Source of the DNA: an uncultured Bacteroidota bacterium
Lineage (GTDB): Bacteria; Bacteroidota; Bacteroidia; Bacteroidales; UBA12077
NCBI GenBank assembly: GCA_913055635.1
Contig: CAJXLK010000040.1
Span: forward strand, 1 to 34,190
Length of the DNA: 34,190 nt
Reading direction: 5' to 3'
Shown here: one piece after another, positions 6,361-24,339 of the stretch
Layout: every line of letters begins with the position of its first letter
How positions within the stretch are numbered: position 1 is the stretch's first letter
Notes under the pieces: generated by a model
Told to the model about the DNA's origin: nothing
Seen by the model: only the letters and a program-made list of their open reading frames with translations
The model's database searches: none
Position numbers and translations under genes: made by a program

Positions 6361-7284
6361 ATGAGATATGAAATAAAAATAGAAAAGGCTCAGGAAGCCG
6401 AAGGAACTATTAACCTTGAAAGGTTAGCCTCCATGGCCAGGGGTATCCTAAAAATCTCTGAAGGGGCGTTTAATATTCGGTTAAAAGGAATCAGCATTAC
6501 AAAAGGAAAAAGAAGCGAAGTTATCCAGAATGCATTCAATGTTACCTTAACAGGGATCGATAAGGGAAGTACGGTTCTTTCTATTAACGCCAAGACATTT
6601 CAGGAAACACTTCAGCCATATCAACTGAACCTGTTCCGCCAGGAACAACAAAAGGAGCTCGCCGGGCATACACCTGTCTCCCTTTTTATTACTACTTTTC
6701 AGCAGGCAATGGATGAAAAAAAGAATAAAAATTTGTTGGACAAACCTCTGCTCAATGAATTGAAACAGTTTAGGAAAGCATTTAACAATGATGAGGAAAC
6801 ATTAATCTTTTCCAATCAAAATACAATACCTGTTCTTCGAATAAAAAGACAGGATTTCGAAAGGATCAGAACACTGGAAAGCACCATTCCGGAACCCGAA
6901 CCGGTCATCATTAACGGTAAAGTTGAAGAACTTAAATACAGCAAATTACGAGTGAAGATACAAACCGATCAAGGCAACATAGACGGCTTTCTATCTGAAG
7001 ATATTTCCTCAGATGTGATTGCCGGATATTGGGGAAAAGTCATCACGATCTCTGGCATATCCCACTATAATCCAGAAGGCAAGCCAATCATAGAAATAAA
7101 AAACATATATGAACCCGGAGAAGGTGATCGTTATTTTTCCAGGAAACCAACCAATGAGACCGTCGAGGAACAAATACAACGCCAGCAGAAAGAGAAAGGA
7201 TTAAACAATCCATTATCGAGCCTGGTAGACCAATGGCCGGGGGATGAAGAATTTGATGAGTTGCTCAACATGCTTTCCAAATGA
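6361..7284 (+). CDS. Uncharacterised 307-aa protein, putative antitoxin coupled to VapC
   Basis: I do not recognise the family. Its stop codon overlaps the start of the downstream PIN-domain gene (ATGA at 7281-7284), so the two are translationally coupled, as toxin-antitoxin pairs often are. The N-terminal ~90 residues are mixed alpha/beta (MRYEIKIEKAQEAEG...). Residues about 180-262 (IINGKVEELKYSKLRVKIQT..., GYWGKVITISGISHY...) have an OB-fold-like alternation of strands. The last 45 residues are charged and end DEEFDELLNMLSK, an acidic helix that could bind a toxin. At 307 aa it is far larger than the usual 70-90 aa VapB. No HTH or AbrB motif is visible, so DNA autoregulation is not supported from sequence. 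Confidence 0.65.
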   Translation: MRYEIKIEKAQEAEGTINLERLASMARGILKISEGAFNIRLKGISITKGKRSEVIQNAFNVTLTGIDKGSTVLSINAKTFQETLQPYQLNLFRQEQQKELAGHTPVSLFITTFQQAMDEKKNKNLLDKPLLNELKQFRKAFNNDEETLIFSNQNTIPVLRIKRQDFERIRTLESTIPEPEPVIINGKVEELKYSKLRVKIQTDQGNIDGFLSEDISSDVIAGYWGKVITISGISHYNPEGKPIIEIKNIYEPGEGDRYFSRKPTNETVEEQIQRQQKEKGLNNPLSSLVDQWPGDEEFDELLNMLSK

Positions 7285-7727
7285 AAAGGTATCTCCTCGA
7301 TACGAATATCTGTTTGGCATACATCAGAGGACATAAGCTATATAAGAAAGTGGAGGCTGAACTCAATTTGATGTCCGATGATGCATTGATTTTGATTTCC
7401 GTGGTCACAAAAGCCGAACTGATATCATTAGGAATACAAAACGGCTGGGAAAATAACAAAATCAAAAAACTAGAATCATTGTTAAAAAAGCTTTTTCTGA
7501 TCAATATCAATGAAGCGGATAAAAACCTGATACAAACCTATGCCCGGATAGATGCCTTTAGCCAGGGAAAACTCTCTGGCCTGTCTAATAAATATACTTC
7601 CCGTAATATGGGCAAGAACGATCTTTGGGTAGCTGCTACCGCTTATGTAACTCAAGCAGAATTAATCACAACAGACATGGATTTTGACCACCTGGATTCA
7701 ACCTTTTTAACAATCCATAATTTCTGA
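7281..7727 (+). CDS. VapC-like PIN-domain ribonuclease toxin
   Basis: A 148-aa PIN-domain protein. The acidic active site is complete: D7 (YLLDTN), E46 (TKAEL), D114 (KNDLWVAATA), and D132 or D134 (TTDMDFD). The spacing fits VapC, an Mg2+-dependent endoribonuclease that typically cuts tRNA or rRNA. The ATG start overlaps the stop of the preceding 307-aa gene by 4 bp, which suggests that gene encodes the antitoxin or immunity partner. The protein is slightly longer than average VapC (about 130 aa). The RNA target cannot be inferred from the sequence. Confidence 0.88.
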   Translation: MKRYLLDTNICLAYIRGHKLYKKVEAELNLMSDDALILISVVTKAELISLGIQNGWENNKIKKLESLLKKLFLININEADKNLIQTYARIDAFSQGKLSGLSNKYTSRNMGKNDLWVAATAYVTQAELITTDMDFDHLDSTFLTIHNF

Positions 7728-7786: not shown

Positions 7787-9013
7787 ATGCCGCGATTCCG
7801 GACCATCGAAGAACTGCTTCTGGAGCTTTACCGCAACCGGGGGCTGTTGTCGGGGATGTTTGGCAAGCGGTACCTTTCGGTTACCGAGGAAGAAATCCTG
7901 CCGCTGCTGGATGATGACCCGGAGAAGCTGGAGCGGCTGGTGGGATATGGCATCCTGGAGAAGGAACACAACACCTACTCGCTCGACAGCCAGCTGCGCG
8001 AGTTCTTCGAAGAGTTCCTGGAGATCAACGAGGAGGTGCACGTGCTTTACATCCGGGAATACCTGGATAAGATTGACAACCTGCGGAACTATTACCTGAA
8101 GGAGACCAACCAGCGGCGCAAGAACCAGCACAGCCAGAAGATCAAGCACTACCTGCGGCGCATCAACCGGGTGACCCTGGGCAATGTGAAGACCCTCCGC
8201 AAAAAGACCGACGACACCTACAAGGCCGAGACCAACTACGAGGTCAAGCGCGATACCCTGAAGGACCTGCGGGACCAGCGCGATAAGCTGGAGGGGGTGC
8301 TCCAGGCCGTCGAGCAAAGGCTCAGCGATGAGCTCTTTTTCCGCAACGCCGCCGACGAAGAGTTCCTCTTTATCATCCACCTCACCAAAATCAACATACA
8401 AAGCGCCCGGCACAACCTGCTCGAGATCCAGCAACAGATCATCGACTACCTCAACCAGGTGGAACACCGCAGTGCTGTGATCGAAAAAGTGTTGCGGCTA
8501 AAAGACATCAAAGACAAGATGCAGCTCAACGAGCTTACCGACTTCGAGCGGCAGGTCAAAGATATTGCCGGTCTTCCGGCCCTCAAACGCGAACAGTTCA
8601 GAACCAGGCTGCCGCTTCGCCTGATCAGTGAAGACGAGCAGCTCCACCAGCTGATCCGGAAAGTGGCGGCTAAAAAGCACAGCCGCCACCTGGAAAAGTT
8701 CAATGTGGCCGATGAACTGGCCGACAAAGACCTGGAAGACCACTACAAGACAGCCCAAACCTACAACCTCGACAAGCTCTTTAAGATCTTCCAGTCGAAG
8801 GACCAGGACCTGTTCCGCTTCATCCTCTGGCACCCTTTCAACCGGGAAGTGGACCAGCGGGAACGGCTGAAGCTCTTCTGCCGGATGGCCTCCAAGTTTG
8901 CCGACCGGCTGCACTTCACCCATCAAACCGAACAATACCATCACTGGGAATACGCCCTGATATATCCCAACAACAAAAAACAAAGCCATGCCCGAGATAC
9001 CCAAAAGCGATAA
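7787..9013 (+). CDS. jetA: JetA-like kleisin subunit of a Wadjet/MukBEF-like SMC system
   Basis: A 408-aa protein, first of four genes in the Wadjet order (kleisin, MukE-like, SMC ATPase, Toprim nuclease). Residues 1-75 look like a winged helix (RTIEELLLELYRNRGLLSGM, then YLSVTEEEILPLL). Residues 85-330 are mostly helical and coiled-coil, and the C-terminus (DLFRFILWHP..., EYALIY) would be the second winged helix that contacts the SMC head. The kleisin would bridge the two JetC heads. It overlaps jetB by 26 bp, so translation is probably coupled. High G+C sets it off from the VapC gene just upstream. A broken second copy of the 5' end lies at 20151. The name comes from gene order and architecture, not from a strong sequence motif. 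Confidence 0.75.
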   Translation: MPRFRTIEELLLELYRNRGLLSGMFGKRYLSVTEEEILPLLDDDPEKLERLVGYGILEKEHNTYSLDSQLREFFEEFLEINEEVHVLYIREYLDKIDNLRNYYLKETNQRRKNQHSQKIKHYLRRINRVTLGNVKTLRKKTDDTYKAETNYEVKRDTLKDLRDQRDKLEGVLQAVEQRLSDELFFRNAADEEFLFIIHLTKINIQSARHNLLEIQQQIIDYLNQVEHRSAVIEKVLRLKDIKDKMQLNELTDFERQVKDIAGLPALKREQFRTRLPLRLISEDEQLHQLIRKVAAKKHSRHLEKFNVADELADKDLEDHYKTAQTYNLDKLFKIFQSKDQDLFRFILWHPFNREVDQRERLKLFCRMASKFADRLHFTHQTEQYHHWEYALIYPNNKKQSHARDTQKR

Positions 9014-9590
9014 AATTTTCGACTGGCTGAGCAAAGGCAACTTCATCAGCTCCAACGCCGTTGACCAGGACCTGCGGCATTACTATGCCATCATCGAGGA
9101 GAACTTCTCCGCCCTCTACCAGCTCTACGAGCAGGTGGGCTATAGCCTGGAGGAAGGCAACAACTATTATCACTTCGGGAAAAAAGACGAGCTGCAAAAC
9201 AGCCAGTCGGTGGAGAAGAAGATTGAAAAAGCCCACAAATGGATCGATATGATGGCCTTTTTCACCACCTATGACCCCTCGTTCACCCGCGGATACCGCT
9301 TCTCCCCCAGCGATGTGCTTCGCCAGATCAACGTCAACGTGGAACTCAAGGAACAGCTGGACCAGCTCAGCGGCCGCACCAGCAAGAAAGACGGCAACTA
9401 CCGCGATATCCTGGACAGCGTGCTGAAGAACCTCAGGGACGAGGGCTTCATCGACCTGGAGAATGAACGCACCCAGACCTACAAGGTGCTCGATGCCTGG
9501 CATTACCTGGAACAAATGGTGATGGCCGTAAATATCAGCGAAGAGGAAACCGATTCAGGCGAAGCACGTACATCGAGTTCTTCTCATTGA
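8988..9590 (+). CDS. jetB: JetB-like (MukE-like) winged-helix subunit
   Basis: A 200-aa protein beginning MPEIPKSDKIFDWLSKGNFI. The helical N-terminus (DLRHYYAIIEENFSALYQLYEQ) and central KKIEKAHKWIDMMAFF..., followed by RYRFSPSDVL-type and DGNYRDILDSVLKNLRDEGF segments, fit the tandem winged-helix MukE/MksE/JetB pattern. That family binds the kleisin and modulates the SMC ATPase. The ATG at 8988 lies inside jetA (26-bp overlap). The last 20 residues are low complexity (EEETDSGEARTSSSSH). A 75-bp spacer separates it from jetC. Sequence identity alone would not name it; the operon position is the main evidence. Confidence 0.7.
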   Translation: MPEIPKSDKIFDWLSKGNFISSNAVDQDLRHYYAIIEENFSALYQLYEQVGYSLEEGNNYYHFGKKDELQNSQSVEKKIEKAHKWIDMMAFFTTYDPSFTRGYRFSPSDVLRQINVNVELKEQLDQLSGRTSKKDGNYRDILDSVLKNLRDEGFIDLENERTQTYKVLDAWHYLEQMVMAVNISEEETDSGEARTSSSSH

Positions 9591-9665
9591 CCTCAAGAGT
9601 TTTAAGGCTCATCATTAAGCCAAACATGACAAACCCATGATCCACTTAATAAACCTAGTTTTCCC

Positions 9666-12600
9666 ATGCAGCAACTGAACCGGATCATACTGATGAACAG
9701 CGCCACGGTGCCTTACCAGGAGATTGAACTGGACGGCAACATCCATTTCATCGGCACCCAGGGTGTGGGCAAGAGCACGGTGCTCCGGGCGGTGCTTTTC
9801 TTCTACATCGCCGACACCCGCCGGCTGGGCCTGTCGAAGGAGCAAAAATCGTTCGCCGAATACTACTTCCCGTATGTCAATTCATACATCGCATACGAGG
9901 TGCAAAAAGGAGAGCGCCTGTTCACGGTGTGGCTGCTGAAAAAGCAGAACCGCCTGGCTTTTCGTTTCATTGACGGGGCTTTCCGGCGGGATTGCTTCAT
10001 CGGGAAGAACCAGGTTTTAAACGAGGAAGAAGCCATCGCCCGCCTTACCCAGAGCCACATCCAGGTGGGCAAGCCCATCACCAACTTCACCGAGTACCGC
10101 AACATGCTGTACGGGGCCGCCCGCAACAAGCAACGCTACAGCCTGATGGAAAGCAAGACATACCAGAACATTCCCCGCACCATCAGCAACGTGTTCATGA
10201 ACTCCTCGCTGGATGCCAGCTTCATCAAAAGAACCATCATCCACTCGCTCAGCGACGAGCCCTATGCGATTGATCTGGAAACCCACCGCCACCACATAAG
10301 CCGGGTTCAGCGCAACTATTACGACATCCTCGAATACAAGAAACACCACCAGCGTGTAGCCAACATCATCAAACAGTACGAGGCCTACCTGGAGCTGCAG
10401 GAACAGATCAAACGCACGGCCTGGCAGCTGGGAGCAGCCTACAACCATTCCCGCAGTGCCCTGCATGAAATCAATGGACAAATCAATGATTACACGGGGA
10501 AGATATCCGGAGTGAAGGAGCAGCTGGAAAAGGCCCGTTCCAATGCCGAGGGCGAACTGCAGACCCTCCGCAACAAGCTGGCCGTGCAGAAGGAGAACCT
10601 GAAGAAGGCCCGCGAACTGGACAAGAAATACAAAGAGCTGGACATTGATAACCTCCTGGCCGAATACAACCAAAAAGACCATTACGCCAACCGCAAAAAG
10701 CAACTGCAGGACCAGCTCAACCACCTGACCGAAAAGTCGGGTTCACTCAAGGCCGCCTATGACAACCAGCTCAGGCATATCGAGCTGAACACCCGGGAGG
10801 CGAACCAGAAGCTGGAATCCCGGATAGCGGCCGAGCGGGAAGATTATCACACCGCCAAGGACCAGATCACCGCCCAGTACGATGCACGCATGGACGAGCT
10901 GCGGGAGGAAGAAAAAGAACGGCTGGAGGAGTTGCTCAATGCCATCCATCAGCAGGAAAGGGAAATTGACCGGCTAAAGGGCAAAGAAGAACAGGTCAGG
11001 AGCCAGTCCTTCCGCAGAGAAGAGCAAGAGGAGCTTTCCGGGCGGATCATTGAGACGGAAAAACGCCTGACCACCCTCGACCATGAGATTCAGCAGATCA
11101 ACCAGCGGGAAAAGACCGAACAGGTAAAGGCCGAACAGCAGGAAAAAGAGCTGGAAAATAAATACACCGCTGCCATCGATGATTATCAACGGCAGATACA
11201 GGAGCTGGCCGGGCGGGAACAAACGCTGCAGCGGCAACTGGACCAATACAGCAACACCCTGCTGGAGTACCTCGAACAAAACAAGCCCGGCTGGCGGGAT
11301 GACATCGGCAAGGTGGCAGGCAGCGAGATCCTTCTGCATACCGGCCTGGAGCCCAAACAAGGGGAAGGCAACAGCCTCTATGGCATCCGGATCAACACCG
11401 ACAAGCTGGAAGCGAGCCCGCTTTCAAGGGCATACCTTCGCGAGCAACTGGAAAAAGCTGCGGGCGAAAGAAAATCGCTGGGCAGGGAACTGGAAAAGAC
11501 CCGCCAGAATAAGGAAGAAGAAAGCAGCAAGCTGCAGAAAAAAATCAACAAGGCGTTCCGCGACCTGAAAAAGGAGCGGGAGAAAAAGCAATATGAGCGG
11601 GAACAACAGGCAATCACGCTGGAGTCGCTCCGAAACGAGCAGCAGAACCTGAAGGAGAAAGCCGAAGGGGAAAGGGAACAGGCCCTGGCTGAAGTCAGGG
11701 ATAAGATAGCCGCGACAGAGCAGGCATTAAGCGAAGATCAGCAAAAGCACAAACAGGAAAAGGAAGCCTACGAAAAATCGCTGGAAAAGCTGGAGCAACA
11801 AAAAAAGGAGCAGACAGAGGGGCGGGCTGCAAAACGCGACAAGGCCATCCGCGAGTGGCAGAAGAAGATCCGGGAAAACGAGGAGGCCGCTTCCAGGGAA
11901 AAGGAGGAGGTCACCCAACAGCGCGACCAGGCCTTGCAGCAGAAAGGGGTAGACACCCAAACCCTGCGCGATCTGGAGCAACAGATCAAAGAGCTGGATG
12001 AGGCCCTTCACCAGATCGAGCAGTACACCCAGACGGTGATGGAGTACTGGAAGGACCACCGGGAGTACCTTTCCCAGGTGGACCATTTCAAGCAAAACCG
12101 CGACCACCTCAGCAACAAACTGCAGAAGCGGGAGGCCCGCTGGAAAGAGCGGGAAGAAGGCTTCAACCAACAGATCCGTCAAAAAGAAGAGGAGAAGCGG
12201 GAGCTGGAGAAACAGCGGGATCACCATCAGCGGCAGGTCAATAAGATGGACGATGCCTTCCGCCAGGAAGAACTCTACCAGGAACTGCGCAACTACATCG
12301 AAAACAGCGACAAGCACGAAAAGGAGGACGTGGAGACCATTATCGACAAGCTGCGCAACCAGAAGAACAGCACCTACACCAAAGCCGGTAAGCTGCGGGA
12401 GCAAATCGCCAACTTCGCCGGCTTCTTCGGGGAAGACAACACCCTGCAGCTGCCCGTGAAGGTCCAGACCGACACCGAGATGATCGATTTTGCCGAGATG
12501 CTCAAAGACATCGAAGACAACCAGAAGATCACCGACATGGAGCTGGACGTGACCAAAAAGTACGCCATGATGATCAACCACATCGGCAAGGACACCGACG

Positions 12601-13283
12601 AGCTGTTCAAGAAGGAGGAAGAGATCCAGAAAGTGGTAAGCCGGATGAACACCGATTTCCGCAACTCCAACTTCGTGGGGGTGGTGCGCTCCATCGAGAT
12701 GCGCCTGCAGGAAGGGGCCGATCCCATCATCGATCTGCTGCGCAGGATACAGGATTTTCGCCGCGACCATATGTTTGCCGTTGGCGAGACCAACCTGTTC
12801 AGCCAAAACAAGGACAAAAGCGGCAACAACAAAGCCGTGGAGATGCTCGAGGAACTCGACAAGCGCATCCGCAACCACAAGGAGAGGTGGGTGAGCATCG
12901 AGAATGCCTTTGAGCTGGAGTTCCGCATCCGTGAAAACGAGAACGACACGGGATGGGTCTCACGCCTGGCCAACGTGGGATCGCACGGCACCGACATCCT
13001 GGTGAAATCCATGATCTACATCAACCTGCTGAACATCTTCAAAAAACGCGAGGCCAAAAAGAACAGCGACACCCGCATCCATTGCCTGATCGATGAGGTG
13101 GGTATCCTGCACGACACCAACGTGCGCGGGCTCATCAACTTCGCCGCCGAACGCGACATCTTCCTGATCAACAGCTCGCCCAACTCGCACAACGAGGAGG
13201 ATTACAAGCACATCTACCAGTTCTCCAAGGACCCTGAATCAAACAAAACAGAAATATTTAAACTACTGAGCAATACGGTGTAG
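9666..13283 (+). CDS. jetC: JetC-like SMC/MukB-type coiled-coil ATPase
   Basis: A 1205-aa P-loop ATPase. Walker A is FIGTQGVGKST near residues 29-38. Walker B is IHCLIDE near 1137-1144, with an ABC-like signature region GSHGTDILVKSM just before it, followed by a switch strand FLINSSP. Between lie two long coiled-coil arms (about 230-530 and 600-960) flanking a compact globular hinge near 538-600 (PGWRDDIGKV to LYGIRINTDKLE). It has only two cysteines, in the head regions, so there is no Rad50 zinc hook; this argues for SMC/MukB type rather than SbcC. The role in Wadjet is ATP-driven loop extrusion on DNA, which licenses cleavage by JetD. Q/E/K-rich coils make identity-based naming risky; head motifs and gene order support the call. 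Confidence 0.82.
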   Translation: MQQLNRIILMNSATVPYQEIELDGNIHFIGTQGVGKSTVLRAVLFFYIADTRRLGLSKEQKSFAEYYFPYVNSYIAYEVQKGERLFTVWLLKKQNRLAFRFIDGAFRRDCFIGKNQVLNEEEAIARLTQSHIQVGKPITNFTEYRNMLYGAARNKQRYSLMESKTYQNIPRTISNVFMNSSLDASFIKRTIIHSLSDEPYAIDLETHRHHISRVQRNYYDILEYKKHHQRVANIIKQYEAYLELQEQIKRTAWQLGAAYNHSRSALHEINGQINDYTGKISGVKEQLEKARSNAEGELQTLRNKLAVQKENLKKARELDKKYKELDIDNLLAEYNQKDHYANRKKQLQDQLNHLTEKSGSLKAAYDNQLRHIELNTREANQKLESRIAAEREDYHTAKDQITAQYDARMDELREEEKERLEELLNAIHQQEREIDRLKGKEEQVRSQSFRREEQEELSGRIIETEKRLTTLDHEIQQINQREKTEQVKAEQQEKELENKYTAAIDDYQRQIQELAGREQTLQRQLDQYSNTLLEYLEQNKPGWRDDIGKVAGSEILLHTGLEPKQGEGNSLYGIRINTDKLEASPLSRAYLREQLEKAAGERKSLGRELEKTRQNKEEESSKLQKKINKAFRDLKKEREKKQYEREQQAITLESLRNEQQNLKEKAEGEREQALAEVRDKIAATEQALSEDQQKHKQEKEAYEKSLEKLEQQKKEQTEGRAAKRDKAIREWQKKIRENEEAASREKEEVTQQRDQALQQKGVDTQTLRDLEQQIKELDEALHQIEQYTQTVMEYWKDHREYLSQVDHFKQNRDHLSNKLQKREARWKEREEGFNQQIRQKEEEKRELEKQRDHHQRQVNKMDDAFRQEELYQELRNYIENSDKHEKEDVETIIDKLRNQKNSTYTKAGKLREQIANFAGFFGEDNTLQLPVKVQTDTEMIDFAEMLKDIEDNQKITDMELDVTKKYAMMINHIGKDTDELFKKEEEIQKVVSRMNTDFRNSNFVGVVRSIEMRLQEGADPIIDLLRRIQDFRRDHMFAVGETNLFSQNKDKSGNNKAVEMLEELDKRIRNHKERWVSIENAFELEFRIRENENDTGWVSRLANVGSHGTDILVKSMIYINLLNIFKKREAKKNSDTRIHCLIDEVGILHDTNVRGLINFAAERDIFLINSSPNSHNEEDYKHIYQFSKDPESNKTEIFKLLSNTV

Positions 13284-13347
13284 CGATGGAACATAATCCA
13301 CAAGGTCATATCATCTTTCATAACCTGAATCCCTCTAAAAACAAAAA

Positions 13348-14214
13348 ATGAAGACACCGATCAAACCTTCTTTTGCCAAAGCGTTGCTGCGGATGGCAGG
13401 TGGAGAGACCCTGAAAGCCTCCGATATCAGCGACAGGAAAACCCTGGAGGTGTTTGTCCAGGACGGGGTGGTGGAGAAGGTGCCGGTGTCGCGCAAACGT
13501 TTTGTTTACCGGGTACCGGATGCGGCTTTGCTGAAGGATTACCTGGCTGCCAATTACCAGATCAAAGACCTGGAGGCTTACCTGGAAATCCTATCCCGGG
13601 ATGAAGCAAGCGGGGCGGACTCGCTCAAAGCCACCTACCATACCAAAACCAAACGAACCACAGCGATGCCGGGTTTTTTTGTTAAAACCCTCCAACCCCT
13701 TCCTGTGCGTCTTAACCAGGAAGCCCTGAGCCTGCCGGCCTCCAAGGGGATGGAGACATTCATCTCGGAACCGGAAAACCTGGCAGTACCGGAAGATGTA
13801 ACCATCATCGGGGTGGAGAACCCGGAGGCTTTTCTTAAGATCGACAGGTTGGGTAAGCACTTCAAAGAATATGAGCCCTGCCTTTTCGTGCTGCGCTACA
13901 TGAGCAAAGGGCTGGTGCCATGGCTACAAACCATTCCCAATCCCTACCTGCATTTCGGGGATTTCGACCTGAGCGGGCTGCAGATCTACATCAGTGAATA
14001 TAAGAGGTACCTGGACGCGGCCCGCTGCAACTTCTTTGTGCCGGGTAACATAGAAGAGCTAATCCTGTCCTACGGCAACCTAGAATTATATGACCGGCAG
14101 GTACAACACACCCAAAACCTGGACACCTCGAATCATCCGGAAATACGAGAACTTGCCCGCATCATCCGTAAATATGGAAAGGGACTGGAACAGGAGATAT
14201 TGTTGAAGCACTGA
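13348..14214 (+). CDS. jetD: JetD-like Toprim nuclease subunit (short form)
   Basis: A 288-aa protein. The C-terminal half is a Toprim domain of the JetD/DUF2220 family: catalytic Glu in TIIGVENPEAF (E157) and the Asp pair in HFGDFDLSGL (D205, D207), followed by NLELYDRQVQHTQNLD and a helical end. The N-terminus (1-65) looks like a winged helix (TLEVFVQDGVVEKVPVSRKR). Known JetD proteins are usually about 350-400 aa with a larger N-terminal DUF3322 arm; here that part is much reduced. JetD is the endonuclease that cuts plasmid DNA once JetABC has loaded. The gene follows jetC after 64 bp and ends convergent with SNF2. All Toprim residues are present, so it should be active. Confidence 0.82.
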   Translation: MKTPIKPSFAKALLRMAGGETLKASDISDRKTLEVFVQDGVVEKVPVSRKRFVYRVPDAALLKDYLAANYQIKDLEAYLEILSRDEASGADSLKATYHTKTKRTTAMPGFFVKTLQPLPVRLNQEALSLPASKGMETFISEPENLAVPEDVTIIGVENPEAFLKIDRLGKHFKEYEPCLFVLRYMSKGLVPWLQTIPNPYLHFGDFDLSGLQIYISEYKRYLDAARCNFFVPGNIEELILSYGNLELYDRQVQHTQNLDTSNHPEIRELARIIRKYGKGLEQEILLKH

Positions 14215-20380: not shown

Positions 20381-21649
20381 ATGACCAGGGTAAAATTCGT
20401 CCACACGGCCGACCTTCACCTGGACACTCCTTTCAAGGGGCTTTCCAGCTGGAACGGTCAATTGGCCTGCAGGCTGAAAAATGCCACACTCAAGAGCTTT
20501 CAAAACACCGTTGACCTCTGCCTGCGGGAAGAGGTTGATTTTCTTTTGGTTGCCGGCGACATTTTCGACAGCGAGGATCAGAGCCTCAAGGCGCAGTTAC
20601 AATTTATCCGGGAACTAAAGCGCCTGGATGAACAAAACATAGCGACATATATCATTTGTGGCAACCATGACCCCAGGGATTCCTGGGTCGATGCCCTGCA
20701 GCTTCCCCCAAACACATACATGTTCGGGGCTTCTGAAGCGGAAAGCTTCACCCATCTTAAAGAGGGAAAGCCCGCGGTGGATATCCACGGGATCAGTTAC
20801 AAGGAGCGGGAGGTACAAAAAGATTTGACCCCTTACTATCAACTCAAAAAGGAACCATCACCGCTTTCGGTTGCCCTGCTGCACGGAACGGCTACCACCC
20901 CGGGTCCGCACGAAAACTATGCGCCTTTCCGGGTAGAAGACATTGCCGGCAAAGATTTTGATTACTGGGCCCTTGGACATATCCACAAAAGAGCGATTCT
21001 CCGCCAGAGGGATCCGGCCGTGGTATATCCCGGCAATCCGCAGGGACGGGATTTCGGGGAAACCGGGGCCAGGGGCTGTTACCTGGTGGAAATGGAAAGG
21101 GACAACCCCCCCAAAATGCAGTTTGTTCCCACCCAAATGATCCGTTTCGAGGAGCTGGAAGTAGACCTCAGCGATACCCAGAACCTCAGCGATCTGCCCG
21201 ATGCCATCGATGAAGCCCTCTTTAACCTAACTGATTATCAGCCAAACACCAGCTATATCCTTAGAATTGTCTTTACCGGCAGAACTTCCCTGCATACCAA
21301 CCTCAATAAAGAAGGTGACATCGATGAGCTGTGGGAACACCTGAACCAGGACCAGCTCAGCAAATCCCTGTTCCGATGGATCGACACAATTCAGGTAAGA
21401 ACCCAACCCAATATGGACCTGGAAAAAATCAAAAAAGGAAGCGACTTTCAGGCAGAAATAGTAAAAACCATCGAAGCTTATGAAAACAATCCACAAAACC
21501 TCGAAGAACTAATCAGACAAGCCGAAGAGAATTTTAAGGATAAACGCGCCGGAAGAAAACTCAATGAATTATCCCGTGATGAGCAAAAAATCCTGCTCGA
21601 AAAAGCCAAATGGCAATTGCTTGAAGAATTATTAAAAGACAAGGAATGA
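20381..21649 (+). CDS. YhaO/SbcD-like metallophosphoesterase (DNA repair exonuclease subunit)
   Basis: A 422-aa calcineurin-like phosphoesterase with all metal-binding motifs: DLHLD (residues 11-15), GDIFD (near 64), GNHD (near 97), LLHG (near 168) and GHIH (near 199). The C-terminal ~120 residues are helical and acidic/basic (EELIRQAEENFKDKRAGRKL), suited to contact the partner ATPase. It resembles YhaO of the YhaO/YhaN pair, the Mre11/SbcD-type nuclease. The stop overlaps the start of the next gene (ATGA, 21646-21649), so the pair is co-translated. The start ATG 20381 follows a purine-rich AGAGGGTGAAAA stretch. Its place right after the jetA remnant may be coincidental. Confidence 0.9.
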   Translation: MTRVKFVHTADLHLDTPFKGLSSWNGQLACRLKNATLKSFQNTVDLCLREEVDFLLVAGDIFDSEDQSLKAQLQFIRELKRLDEQNIATYIICGNHDPRDSWVDALQLPPNTYMFGASEAESFTHLKEGKPAVDIHGISYKEREVQKDLTPYYQLKKEPSPLSVALLHGTATTPGPHENYAPFRVEDIAGKDFDYWALGHIHKRAILRQRDPAVVYPGNPQGRDFGETGARGCYLVEMERDNPPKMQFVPTQMIRFEELEVDLSDTQNLSDLPDAIDEALFNLTDYQPNTSYILRIVFTGRTSLHTNLNKEGDIDELWEHLNQDQLSKSLFRWIDTIQVRTQPNMDLEKIKKGSDFQAEIVKTIEAYENNPQNLEELIRQAEENFKDKRAGRKLNELSRDEQKILLEKAKWQLLEELLKDKE

Positions 21650-24339
21650 TCATCAAAGAGATCCATACCGAAGGCTTCGGAATATTCAACGGATTTTCAC
21701 TGACCGGGTTGGACAAAGGAGTAAACATTCTCCATGGGAACAATGAGGTGGGCAAATCCACCCTGCTGGCTTTCCTCAGGTATACCTTGTTTGGTTACCC
21801 CGATAAAAGAAGAAAATTAAATCAATACTACCCATTAAACGGAGGCAAACATGGAGGCAGAATAAAAGCCGAGCTCTACTCCGGTAAAGAAGCAATTTTT
21901 GAACGATATGCCGGAACCGGCAACGGAAATATTACCCTGCATTACAACGGGCAGGAACTCCAGGACGAAGACCTATGGAACCAGCTTCTTGGCAATGCCA
22001 GGGAAAATCTTTATAACAATGTTTACGCCTTTTCCCTGGATGAACTGGTCAATCTCGAATCGTTGTCCGAATCAGGGGTAAAGGACAAGATATTCAGTGT
22101 GGGAATGGGCCTGAGCAACATCTCCATTGGCGAGGTCGAAGATAAAATCCTAAAGCAAAACGAAGAAATATATAAACCCAGGGGCAACAAACAACTTATC
22201 CCGGAAATACGCACCAAAATAGAAAACAAGGAATCCAGGATTAAACAAATCCAGCAATACCTGCCCCAATATCAAAGCCTGCATCAAGAAATAACACAGC
22301 TGAAAAAAGAGGCAGATGAGCTCGAATCCCGGATAAAAGAATCAAGGGAGGAAGCAAACACCCTGCACAATTACATAAAATGCTATCCTTATTTCATCAC
22401 CTATACCCATTCCGAGCAAGCCCTTAAGGGACTTCCCCCATTAAAAGATTATCCTGAAAAAGGACTGGAACGACTTGAAAAGCTGGAAGAAAGAGAAGAA
22501 ACATTAAGCAATACCCTCCGGGAATTGCACAAAGGCACGAAAGAGGAAAGGGGAATTGAAGAGCTTCAAAAGATCTGCGGAGAGATCTCCTACAACGACA
22601 AATTAGCGGAAAAGCACGACTCATTGGAATACCTGCGCACCAACCTGGAAAAATATAAACAGGCAGTGTCTGAAAAAGAGGGGGAGGAAGAAAAAATCAA
22701 GAAATACAACCAGCATATCAGCAAGAAAATATCCGATATCAACAGCCAATGGACCGAAGAACATATAAGTGGATTTTCCGACATCACGGTTCATAAAAAC
22801 GCAATAGAAAATTACAAAAACACGTTCAATGAGTTAACCCAACAAATACGGGACCAGGAAGCCCAGCTTAAGGCAATCCAGGCAAAAGAGGGGCCCCTGA
22901 GGCCAAAGGCCTTCGCCATATCCTTGGGCATTATTTTTCTTATCGGCGCTATCCCGGCCTTTTACTACAGCGTGCCAATTCTGGGCGGTGCCTTGCTGGT
23001 TATCGCCCTAATCCTTATTCTGGGCAAAAAATATTTCCTGAAAGAAGCCCCCGCCAATAAATTGAGAGAAAAAGCCGAAAAATTAAAAGCGCAAAAGCAA
23101 AGTAGGGAGCAGGAATATGGACAATACCTGAAACACCAGCTCAACCTTCCCGATTCACTATCGCCGGATGCCGTAGTGAATATCTTCGGTGAGATAGCCC
23201 AACTTCAAAACTGGATCCAGGAGAGAAATCACCTCAGGGAAAAGCTCAACCAACAACGAACTCCATTTATACGGCAATTCGAAGAAACAGCCGGCGCAGT
23301 GAGGGAAATATCCCACAAAGCAAGCAAACGGGAAAACACGGAAATCCTTGTAAACCAGCTGATTTCCGAATACGATGAAACAACGCATCAACTCAAACAA
23401 AAACAGGAGTTGGAGAAGGAACTGAACCGCAAAAGGAATGCTTTTAACAATTCAAAAGATCAGCTGGAGCAGACACAAAAAGAAATCGGAAAGATTTTAA
23501 AATCTGTTTCCGCTTCAGACCGGGATGAGTTCAGAAGAAAATACGAACAAAACAACAAGGTAAAAGAATATTTGGAGCAAAAAAAAGCGGCAGTTGAAGC
23601 CATTGAAAATATTGTAGGCCAGGGCAAAGCCGGGCAGGTGATCGAATATCTCAACAGCTATGAAAAAGAATCTATTGAGGCAAGGATTCGCGAGCTTGAA
23701 GAGCAAACGGAGGCAAAATCGCAGGAATGGCAGGATAAAAACAACAAATTGGGAGAAAAAAGAAATGAGCTCAACAGGATTGAGGGGGAATCCGAACTTG
23801 CAGCTGAACTCACTGAATTGGAGACGGAGAAGCAAAAGTTACAGGATGCTTATAAAGAGTGGGTAGCAGGTCAAATCGCTTCAAACCTCTTGAATGAAGT
23901 CAAATCCAAATATGAGCGGGAAAAGCAACCACAGGTCATCAAGAATTCAAGCCATTATTTCACAAGGATCACCTCGGGTGGCTACAGCAAGGTACGAGTG
24001 CCGCTGGACGACAAAGAAATGGGCGATATGGTGGTGTATGACGCCCGGGAAGCCCCTAAAAAAATAGATCAACTCAGCCGCGGAACTAAGGAGCAGTTGC
24101 TCATAAGCCTTAGGCTGGGTTTTATAGAAGAATATGAAAAACAAGCCGAACCCCTTCCACTGGTTGTGGACGAGGTTATGGTCAATTTCGACCCCCACCG
24201 GGCCAGGCAACTGGCAAAAATACTCCAGGAGTTTGGACAAAACAGGCAAATTCTCTTGTTCACCTGCCACCCTTCCACACAAGACCATTTCGACCGCTCA
24301 TCGGTGCATGTGAAAAAAATGCTATCCACCATTCAGTAA
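21646..24339 (+). CDS. YhaN/SbcC-like AAA ATPase with central membrane-like segment
   Basis: An 897-aa P-loop ATPase: Walker A GNNEVGKST at 31-39, followed by FLRYTLFGYP, typical of YhaN. The C-terminal head has signature LSRGTKEQLLISLRLGF and Walker B LPLVVDEVMVNFD. Long coiled coils lie between. Near residues 424-468 two hydrophobic stretches (AISLGIIFLIGAIPAF and ILGGALLVIALILIL) sit in the middle of the coil where Rad50/SbcC would carry a zinc hook; no CxxC hook is present. Related YhaN proteins have such a hydrophobic hairpin, suggesting membrane attachment. It works with the YhaO-like nuclease encoded just upstream (4-bp overlap). The likely role is end processing of DNA, or defence. 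No operator is visible. Confidence 0.88.
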   Translation: MIIKEIHTEGFGIFNGFSLTGLDKGVNILHGNNEVGKSTLLAFLRYTLFGYPDKRRKLNQYYPLNGGKHGGRIKAELYSGKEAIFERYAGTGNGNITLHYNGQELQDEDLWNQLLGNARENLYNNVYAFSLDELVNLESLSESGVKDKIFSVGMGLSNISIGEVEDKILKQNEEIYKPRGNKQLIPEIRTKIENKESRIKQIQQYLPQYQSLHQEITQLKKEADELESRIKESREEANTLHNYIKCYPYFITYTHSEQALKGLPPLKDYPEKGLERLEKLEEREETLSNTLRELHKGTKEERGIEELQKICGEISYNDKLAEKHDSLEYLRTNLEKYKQAVSEKEGEEEKIKKYNQHISKKISDINSQWTEEHISGFSDITVHKNAIENYKNTFNELTQQIRDQEAQLKAIQAKEGPLRPKAFAISLGIIFLIGAIPAFYYSVPILGGALLVIALILILGKKYFLKEAPANKLREKAEKLKAQKQSREQEYGQYLKHQLNLPDSLSPDAVVNIFGEIAQLQNWIQERNHLREKLNQQRTPFIRQFEETAGAVREISHKASKRENTEILVNQLISEYDETTHQLKQKQELEKELNRKRNAFNNSKDQLEQTQKEIGKILKSVSASDRDEFRRKYEQNNKVKEYLEQKKAAVEAIENIVGQGKAGQVIEYLNSYEKESIEARIRELEEQTEAKSQEWQDKNNKLGEKRNELNRIEGESELAAELTELETEKQKLQDAYKEWVAGQIASNLLNEVKSKYEREKQPQVIKNSSHYFTRITSGGYSKVRVPLDDKEMGDMVVYDAREAPKKIDQLSRGTKEQLLISLRLGFIEEYEKQAEPLPLVVDEVMVNFDPHRARQLAKILQEFGQNRQILLFTCHPSTQDHFDRSSVHVKKMLSTIQ

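Follow-up and report, generated by a model that had tools for sequence, protein, structure and literature searches.

We analysed a 34,190-nucleotide stretch of DNA from an uncultured Bacteroidota bacterium (assembly GCA_913055635.1, contig CAJXLK010000040.1, positions 1 to 34,190; hereafter the window), which carries a four-gene operon resembling the Wadjet plasmid-restriction systems. The genes, jetA to jetD, are collinear between positions 7787 and 14214 (Table 1), with a 26-bp overlap of jetA and jetB. A preliminary reading of the sequence without database searches (the sequence-only reading) had described four open reading frames (ORFs) in the order kleisin, MukE-like protein, structural maintenance of chromosomes (SMC)-type ATPase and Toprim nuclease, and all four were found at these places. 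The four gene products probably form a single SMC-nuclease complex of the Wadjet/MksBEFG type, within a divergent branch for which the DUF7281 JetD offers a name.

Table 1. Genes of the jet operon (aa, amino acids; AF2, AlphaFold2; KITE, kleisin-interacting tandem winged-helix element)
Gene	Position	Strand	Product	Basis
jetA	7787..9013	+	Likely MukF/JetA-like kleisin, 408 aa	AF2/Foldseek, no convincing family profile
jetB	8988..9590	+	MksE/KITE subunit, 200 aa	Pfam MksE PF21980
jetC	9666..13283	+	MukB-like SMC ATPase, 1205 aa	Pfam DUF3584, Walker motifs
jetD	13348..14214	+	Compact MksG/topoisomerase VI-A-like Toprim nuclease, 288 aa	Pfam DUF7281, AF2 fold

Identity of the SMC core subunits

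The Wadjet/MksFEBG-type order proposed from the sequence was borne out by profiles for JetB and JetC, which matched MksE and the MukB-like SMC family DUF3584, respectively. JetB matched the MksE model, which also matches in E. coli, over residues 6-177 (1.3e-38, 133 bits, cut-off 27). JetA and JetB had both been described as not recognisable by strong motifs; this holds for JetA, which matched no family convincingly in Pfam, NCBIfam or PADLOC, and not for JetB. The JetB of type I Wadjet has an IFDR motif according to the accessible text of PMC10586767. We considered an N-terminal IF motif as its counterpart and discarded it, as the loose pattern fits 62 of 86 JetB sequences, nuclease-free sets included, and is therefore uninformative. 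The DUF3584 match of JetC spans residues 18-1177 (2.5e-75). A Walker A motif (IGTQGVGKSTVL, residues 29-40), a signature region and a Walker B motif (D1143-E1144) are all present and conserved, as in SMC ATPases; residues 1105-1116 read GSHGTDILVKSM. JetC has no zinc hook, as had been noted from the sequence, CxxC being absent, and a single coiled-coil break, read from the sequence near residues 535-590, would fit the compact hinge proposed at the same time. An NCBIfam scan of the four proteins gave nothing useful.

JetA was modelled as a single chain with AF2 from a 56-sequence alignment, giving a predicted local distance difference test score (pLDDT) of 77 and a predicted template modelling score (pTM) of 0.43. 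Judged by its secondary structure, the model has a winged helix at each end and a long helical bundle between them. Foldseek placed MukF at ranks 1-3 (E 1.1e-3, 1.6e-3 and 1.4e-2), with the Wadjet JetA of E. coli (8as8_E) at rank 16 (E 0.072), and VIA-align matched MukF at Z 12.8 and 12.5, the latter to 1t98_B over 208 residues with a root-mean-square deviation (rmsd) of 4.7. None of 56 JetA relatives had a PADLOC Jet match. Taken with the gene order, the fold makes JetA a likely kleisin, and this is the weakest link of the four-gene assignment.

JetD has a predicted topoisomerase VI-A-like Toprim fold and conserved acidic residues

JetD matched Pfam DUF7281 (5e-10) and scored 13.8 bits against the classic JetD_C model, below its cut-off of 22. 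Among JetD relatives, DUF7281 was matched by 72 of 73, JetD_C by 22 of 73 (E <=0.01) and the PADLOC JetD1 model by 66 of 73, the strongest at 6.7e-10. The AF2 model (mean pLDDT 93, 73-sequence alignment) most closely matched topoisomerase VI-A in Foldseek (E 3.6e-6), followed by Spo11 and a second topoisomerase VI-A. In VIA-align it matched Corynebacterium glutamicum MksG (8b7f_A; Z 12.9, 150 residues, rmsd 2.9), topoisomerase VI-A (Z 12.7) and Pseudomonas aeruginosa JetD (7til_B; Z 11.5, 157 residues, rmsd 3.3). Matches to MksG, topoisomerase VI-A/Spo11 and JetD occupied Z 10.4-12.9 and the next reached at most 6.2, the match at Z 6.2 being T7 phage primase, likewise a Toprim protein. These top matches span JetD residues 105-288; the first 105 residues resemble regulators with a winged helix (Z 5-6), a fold arrangement that is common. 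The structural check that the sequence-only reading had called for thus returned an MksG/JetD-type Toprim fold for JetD, confidently predicted, and a MukF-like kleisin for JetA, from a middling prediction; no unrelated family fits better.

Residues E157, D205 and D207, named beforehand for JetD, are present in the window protein and, together with N158, Q282 and E283, invariant in all 89 JetD sequences; position 281 is E in 68/89 and D in 18/89. In eight classic JetD sequences, E259-N260, D302, D304 and E375-Q376-E377 are invariant, and alignment of the two profiles pairs E157-N158 with the classic E-N, D205 and D207 with DxD, and E281-Q282-E283 with EQE. According to the accessible text of PMC10123090, the substitutions E236A and D279A drastically impaired the nuclease activity of MksG, and E349/E351 are its proposed nucleophiles.

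The presence of topoisomerase VI-A and Spo11 among the best fold matches raises an alternative, in which JetD breaks host DNA in the manner of these enzymes and the SMC core acts as its loader. A tyrosine at position 78 in 83 of 89 JetD sequences would suit such a mechanism. This residue is not invariant, however, being F, W, L, T or A in the other six, and MksG, the best match, is described in the text available of PMC10123090 as being without a tyrosine candidate in the domain equivalent to 5Y-CAP. We therefore regard topoisomerase-like breakage as extremely unlikely.

Distribution and conservation of the operon

A scan of one genome per species gave 495 JetD pattern hits, of which 370 were confirmed as relatives, and further analysis covered 80 of these 370. 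By record title, 75 of the 80 are from Bacteroidota; the family loci include one from Dysgonomonas sp. 511 (L086). The remaining five are from Kiritimatiellales or Pontiellaceae (L046, L048, L050), Desulfuromusa (L083) and Altiarchaeales (L098); four of them are in metagenome-assembled genomes and could reflect misbinning. A plasmid collection contained five records with JetD relatives (two Phocaeicola massiliensis, two Persicobacter and one Salinibacter ruber), and in all five the four genes follow the same order. Some records of this collection look chromosomal, and its P. distasonis record bears rpmA.

JetC was found, at least in part, at 78 of the 80 genome loci, the exceptions being L096 and L111. 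The complete order ABCD on one strand was present at 70 of 97 loci in a scripted count whose search profiles derive from six of the 97, and the window locus fell outside the 70 solely from one spurious JetA match on another ORF. Other loci were incomplete at contig ends, had a split or disrupted jetC (L045, L047, L054, L069), belonged to sets without jetD or had a surplus JetD match (L113). Genes not found were jetA at L046, jetA and jetB at L073, and jetA, jetB and jetC at L096, a short contig. The operon can be rearranged, since in L079 and L111 jetA lies 3' of jetD on the opposite strand. Related operons may also hold additional genes, encoding DUF1016 or YhcG nucleases (L052, L113, L202), a KilA-N protein (L050), a PDDEXK_3 protein (L076; L084 similar by eye) and a RhuM protein (L104); four further inserted ORFs had no Pfam match. 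Taken together, this is a real, conserved and apparently mobile Wadjet-like operon. A phage-borne system was considered and rejected, as JetC had no tblastn match in 50,697 phage records; searching viral contigs for the JetD pattern returned 67 hits, of which not one was confirmed.

A further divergent branch was observed at L037:3706-9537, on Salinibacter plasmid pSR76, and at L138:10314-14954 (G186); its SMC proteins are short (966 and 887 aa) and its JetD is DUF7281-like.

Patchy occurrence and composition

G338, a genome of the window's order, and G368, that of Dysgonomonas sp. 511 (L086), gave JetC matches at identical coordinates, which makes the order that of Dysgonomonas, the Bacteroidales; a 16S gene was not found in the window's own genome. 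The operon is patchily distributed among the window's closer relatives. The JetD profile matched 6 of 59 genomes, namely the window's own, none of four others in the genus, one of 20 others in the family and four of 34 in the rest of the order. JetC matched seven, and in the seventh (G330) the contig stops right after jetC. Among 296 genomes of the phylum, a sample in which the window's order is represented by just two further genomes and which is thus little informative on occurrence, DUF7281 matched the window's own genome only, the JetD profile two and the JetC profile five, four of them weakly. In a tree of 95 JetC head sequences, the window pairs with L041 (support 0.945) and the two then join Prolixibacteraceae-type and Pontiellaceae sequences (support 1.0); the sequence from a genome of the same family (G309, locus L200) is placed elsewhere. 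The G+C content of the operon is 0.538 versus 0.450 in its flanks, and G+C at third codon positions (GC3) is 0.75-0.79 in jetA, jetB and jetC, 0.65 in jetD and 0.39-0.67 in 18 other genes of the window. This contrast in composition, and the tree placement apart from G309, suggest that the operon was gained horizontally.

Sets without jetD and the divergence of JetD

Intact jetABC without jetD was found at seven loci (L038, L039, L195, L196, L197, L198 and L204); the records of L199 and L205 end before the jetD position. In the JetC tree, six of the jetD-free sets fall in two places, one with Flammeovirga and Persicobacter and the other with P. distasonis and P. faecalis, so that they represent two lineages or more. 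Nested within the latter group is P. massiliensis, which has jetD. The DNA of P. massiliensis (L034) and P. faecalis (L195) is about 90% identical until 5 bases beyond the jetC stop codon; jetD follows in the former (L034:8977-9855) and three other ORFs in the latter (L195:11795-16518), after which similarity returns. The ratios of nonsynonymous to synonymous substitution rates (dN/dS) between two Flammeovirga sets without jetD (L196/L197) are low (0.035 for jetA, 0.052 for jetB and 0.023 for jetC), which argues that the core is kept. Several dS values in the pair comparisons were saturated. All six checkable hosts of a jetD-free set (three Flammeovirga, P. faecalis and two Persicobacter) also have a four-gene set. 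Since four of the six had been picked for having jetD, the count does not independently support an action of JetD in trans. At L205 (Bacteroides finegoldii), jetA, jetB and the start of jetC adjoin an annotated class A beta-lactamase gene.

Where present, JetD usually diverges more than its partners. Among 73 close pairs, defined by a JetB identity of 75% or more and not independent of one another, JetD is the least identical protein in 52; L116/L107 show the reverse pattern, JetD being the more similar protein. Between Flammeovirga pacifica and two congeners, the silent divergence of jetD is 0.72 and 0.81, versus 0.19-0.44 for jetA, jetB and jetC, and this silent-site excess is a sign that jetD of F. 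pacifica was exchanged. Exchange as a general rule was not supported, as most of 16 pairs show silent divergence of jetD like that of its neighbours. Quicker change of the protein is a better reading of its low identity than exchange.

The jetD-free sets bear on a second alternative, in which the main task of JetABC would be to organise the chromosome, with JetD as an accessory nuclease in repair or decatenation. Besides these seven loci and the low dN/dS of the Flammeovirga pair, it draws support from the lack of ScpA (PF02616) matches in all 59 relatives, versus matches in 9 of 14 control genomes, and from a Hi-C study that, in its accessible text, found none of the known condensins in the two Bacteroidetes it examined (PMC10197239). 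However, JetC occurs in just 7 of 59 relatives, and a role as general condensin of the order was set aside for this reason. The suggested horizontal gain and the parallel divergence of JetC and JetD also speak against a chromosomal role, and we consider a condensin with an accessory nuclease unlikely.

Genomic neighbourhood

On the 5' side of the operon, a Pfam scan found a gene without assigned function and then a PIN-domain gene. These two genes (6361-7727) encode a 307-aa protein matching PADLOC PDC-M32A (3.4e-8) and a VapC-like PIN-domain protein, and have a GC3 of 0.40-0.42 versus 0.75-0.79 in jetABC; the pair is probably of different origin than the operon. A convergent SNF2 helicase gene lies on the 3' side. 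Further downstream, at 20381-24339, is a metallophosphatase gene with an AAA_27-domain gene immediately 3', a pair that presumably resembles SbcD/SbcC or YhaO/YhaN. A tRNA search of the window found none, and promoter and terminator scans yielded about as many candidates as in shuffled sequence. A Shine-Dalgarno-like motif precedes 1 of 17 gene starts in the window; such motifs are rare in Bacteroidota.

Proposed mechanism and its standing

In the model given for type I Wadjet in the accessible text of a 2023 review, DNA is recognised by total extrusion and then cleaved (PMC10586767). By analogy with the studied type I systems, we infer that the window operon would cut small circular DNA. Since motor, closing subunits and nuclease are all encoded with their key residues intact, the same mechanism is our best guess. 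JetA as kleisin and JetB as KITE subunit would close the ring of JetC and bring two motors together as a pair, and the complex would load onto DNA and reel in loops using ATP. On a small circle the DNA would run out, and the resulting state would permit a JetD dimer to take hold of the circle and cut it; E157/D205/D207 are the likely metal site in this scheme, and E281/E283 the candidate nucleophiles. The chromosome would be spared, being too large to be reeled in fully, whereas small circular plasmids and elements like them would be expected to be lost. Patchy occurrence, conservation of the operon and co-divergence of JetC and JetD are consistent with such a Wadjet-like complex, as are the nuclease, KilA-N and RhuM genes within some related operons.

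Several results weigh against this assignment. Syntaxin and STAT bundles beat MukF on the JetA model (VIA-align Z 13-14, top 14.1, over about 130 residues), and the JetA profile gave no alignment to the classic JetA profile (probability 1.4). Comparison of the JetD profile with that of eight classic JetD proteins was moderate (probability 35, E 4e-4). Profiles of all four proteins found nothing convincing among PDB sequences, and the structure predictions cover single chains of JetA and JetD only. The correlation of JetC and JetD distances (r 0.88 over 75 loci, a value reached in 0 of 999 permutations; r 0.84 over 72 loci when L037, L055 and L063 are left out) includes any effect of shared host descent. 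The nearest downstream genes have GC3 of 0.63 and 0.67, close to the 0.65 of jetD, so that the composition argument for gain is modest. Finally, because seven loci have jetABC without jetD, the core may serve in something beyond cutting.

A wider reading would make the branch a fourth Wadjet type, found mainly in Bacteroidota, with a detachable and fast-evolving nuclease. JetABC lineages would then recur both with and without jetD, and selection would keep the jetD-free sets intact, these borrowing JetD from a second operon of the same cell or acting as condensin where ScpA is undetected. We put this forward tentatively, as a proposal that may well prove wrong. If true, it would form a direct bridge from chromosome condensins to plasmid immunity. 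A literature search, with subscription papers and bioRxiv outside its reach, found no paper on DUF7281 and none on JetD- or MksG-free sets; the 'type IV' of PMC12287153 is, in the part of that paper accessible, a CRISPR-Cas type.

Most work on Wadjet has dealt with type I, as stated in the available text of the same review (PMC10586767). The branch described here is large (at least 370 JetD relatives with one genome per species) and weakly matched by PADLOC, so defence surveys could miss it, as could attempts at making such hosts transformable. The P. massiliensis/P. faecalis pair, and the Flammeovirga genomes with both kinds of set, allow an SMC core to be compared with and without its nuclease. 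The role of the nuclease-free relatives is the more interesting question. The SMC complex that aligns the chromosome arms of Bacteroides was reported as unidentified in the accessible text of PMC10197239, and the jetD-free sets are candidates for this function only where they occur.

Comparison with known systems

PADLOC gave weak matches in the window to JetC1 (29.1 bits) and LmuB (24.9 bits), both on JetC, and to JetD1 (20 bits) on JetD, and no Jet model matched JetA or JetB. Weak detection of some of the proteins and none of others agrees with the divergent Bacteroidota subtype suggested by the sequence-only reading.

The LmuB match, near in score to that of JetC1, points to a third alternative, a Lamassu-kind anti-phage system in which an SMC-like sensor frees a nuclease on phage or host DNA, leading to abortive infection. 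This likeness consists of a weak match on coiled-coil stretches, LmuB weakly matches true JetC1 proteins too, and no other Lamassu model matched the four proteins. By contrast, the MksE subunit and MksG-fold JetD of the window operon are Wadjet features and, to our knowledge, not Lamassu features. A Lamassu-kind system is accordingly very unlikely.

The operon resembles the MukBEF/MksBEF condensins in its MksE/MukE-type KITE subunit, recognised by Pfam, in a JetA model nearest MukF, and in JetC, which is MukB-like by the PADLOC description of its JetC1 models. It differs from them in having a nuclease gene and in its patchy occurrence, with JetC in 7 of 59 relatives, and the PDB sequence searches gave no MukBEF match.

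With type I Wadjet (8as8, 7til) the operon shares gene order, subunit classes, the JetD fold and the aligned EN, DxD and EQE residues. It lacks the strong JetA-D profile matches and the above-cut-off JetD_C match of that type. JetC1 scored 29 bits in the window versus 1049-1631 bits for four type I JetC proteins of the phylum (L133, 1631; L136, 1213; L141, 1117; L140, 1049), and the JetA proteins of the window family (56 relatives) have no PADLOC Jet match, nor does their profile align with that of classic JetA. L133, L136 and L140 come from genomes with a JetD_C match; L141, type I-like in its JetC, is an MksE locus in a genome (G253) without one, so that type I sets may also occur without JetD. 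JetD_C was matched in 39 of the 296 genomes of the phylum. Two of these genomes (G098 and G185, family f18) have four matches each, some partial, representing several classic Wadjet loci or remnants. At three other MksE loci (L132, L137, L138) the SMC proteins had no PADLOC match at 1e-4, and the genomes of L132 (G002) and L137 (G012) lack a JetD_C match. A branch of 2.85 in the JetC tree divides the type I group from the rest, which comprises the window family with L132 and L137; judged by these comparisons, the family is far from type I. Types II and III are not in the tree and were compared through PADLOC profiles only. At E <=1 these gave JetD3 (0.0073) and JetD2 (0.036) on JetD and nothing on JetA, JetB or JetC, so that the operon has neither the JetA2-D2 nor the JetA3-D3 set of profile matches.

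In general form, the window holds a four-gene operon of kleisin, KITE, SMC and Toprim nuclease subunits as in Wadjet/MksBEFG systems, JetA being the least certain member. The operon differs from MksBEFG of C. glutamicum in its compact JetD, 288 aa versus 380-403 aa in eight classic JetD proteins, with a shorter N-terminal part. As in MksBEFG of C. glutamicum, whose subunit order is F-E-B-G in the accessible text of PMC10123090, the four subunits of the window operon follow the order F-E-B-G, and its JetD has a predicted MksG fold, acidic residues resembling the MksG metal ligands and a C-terminal E-x-E.

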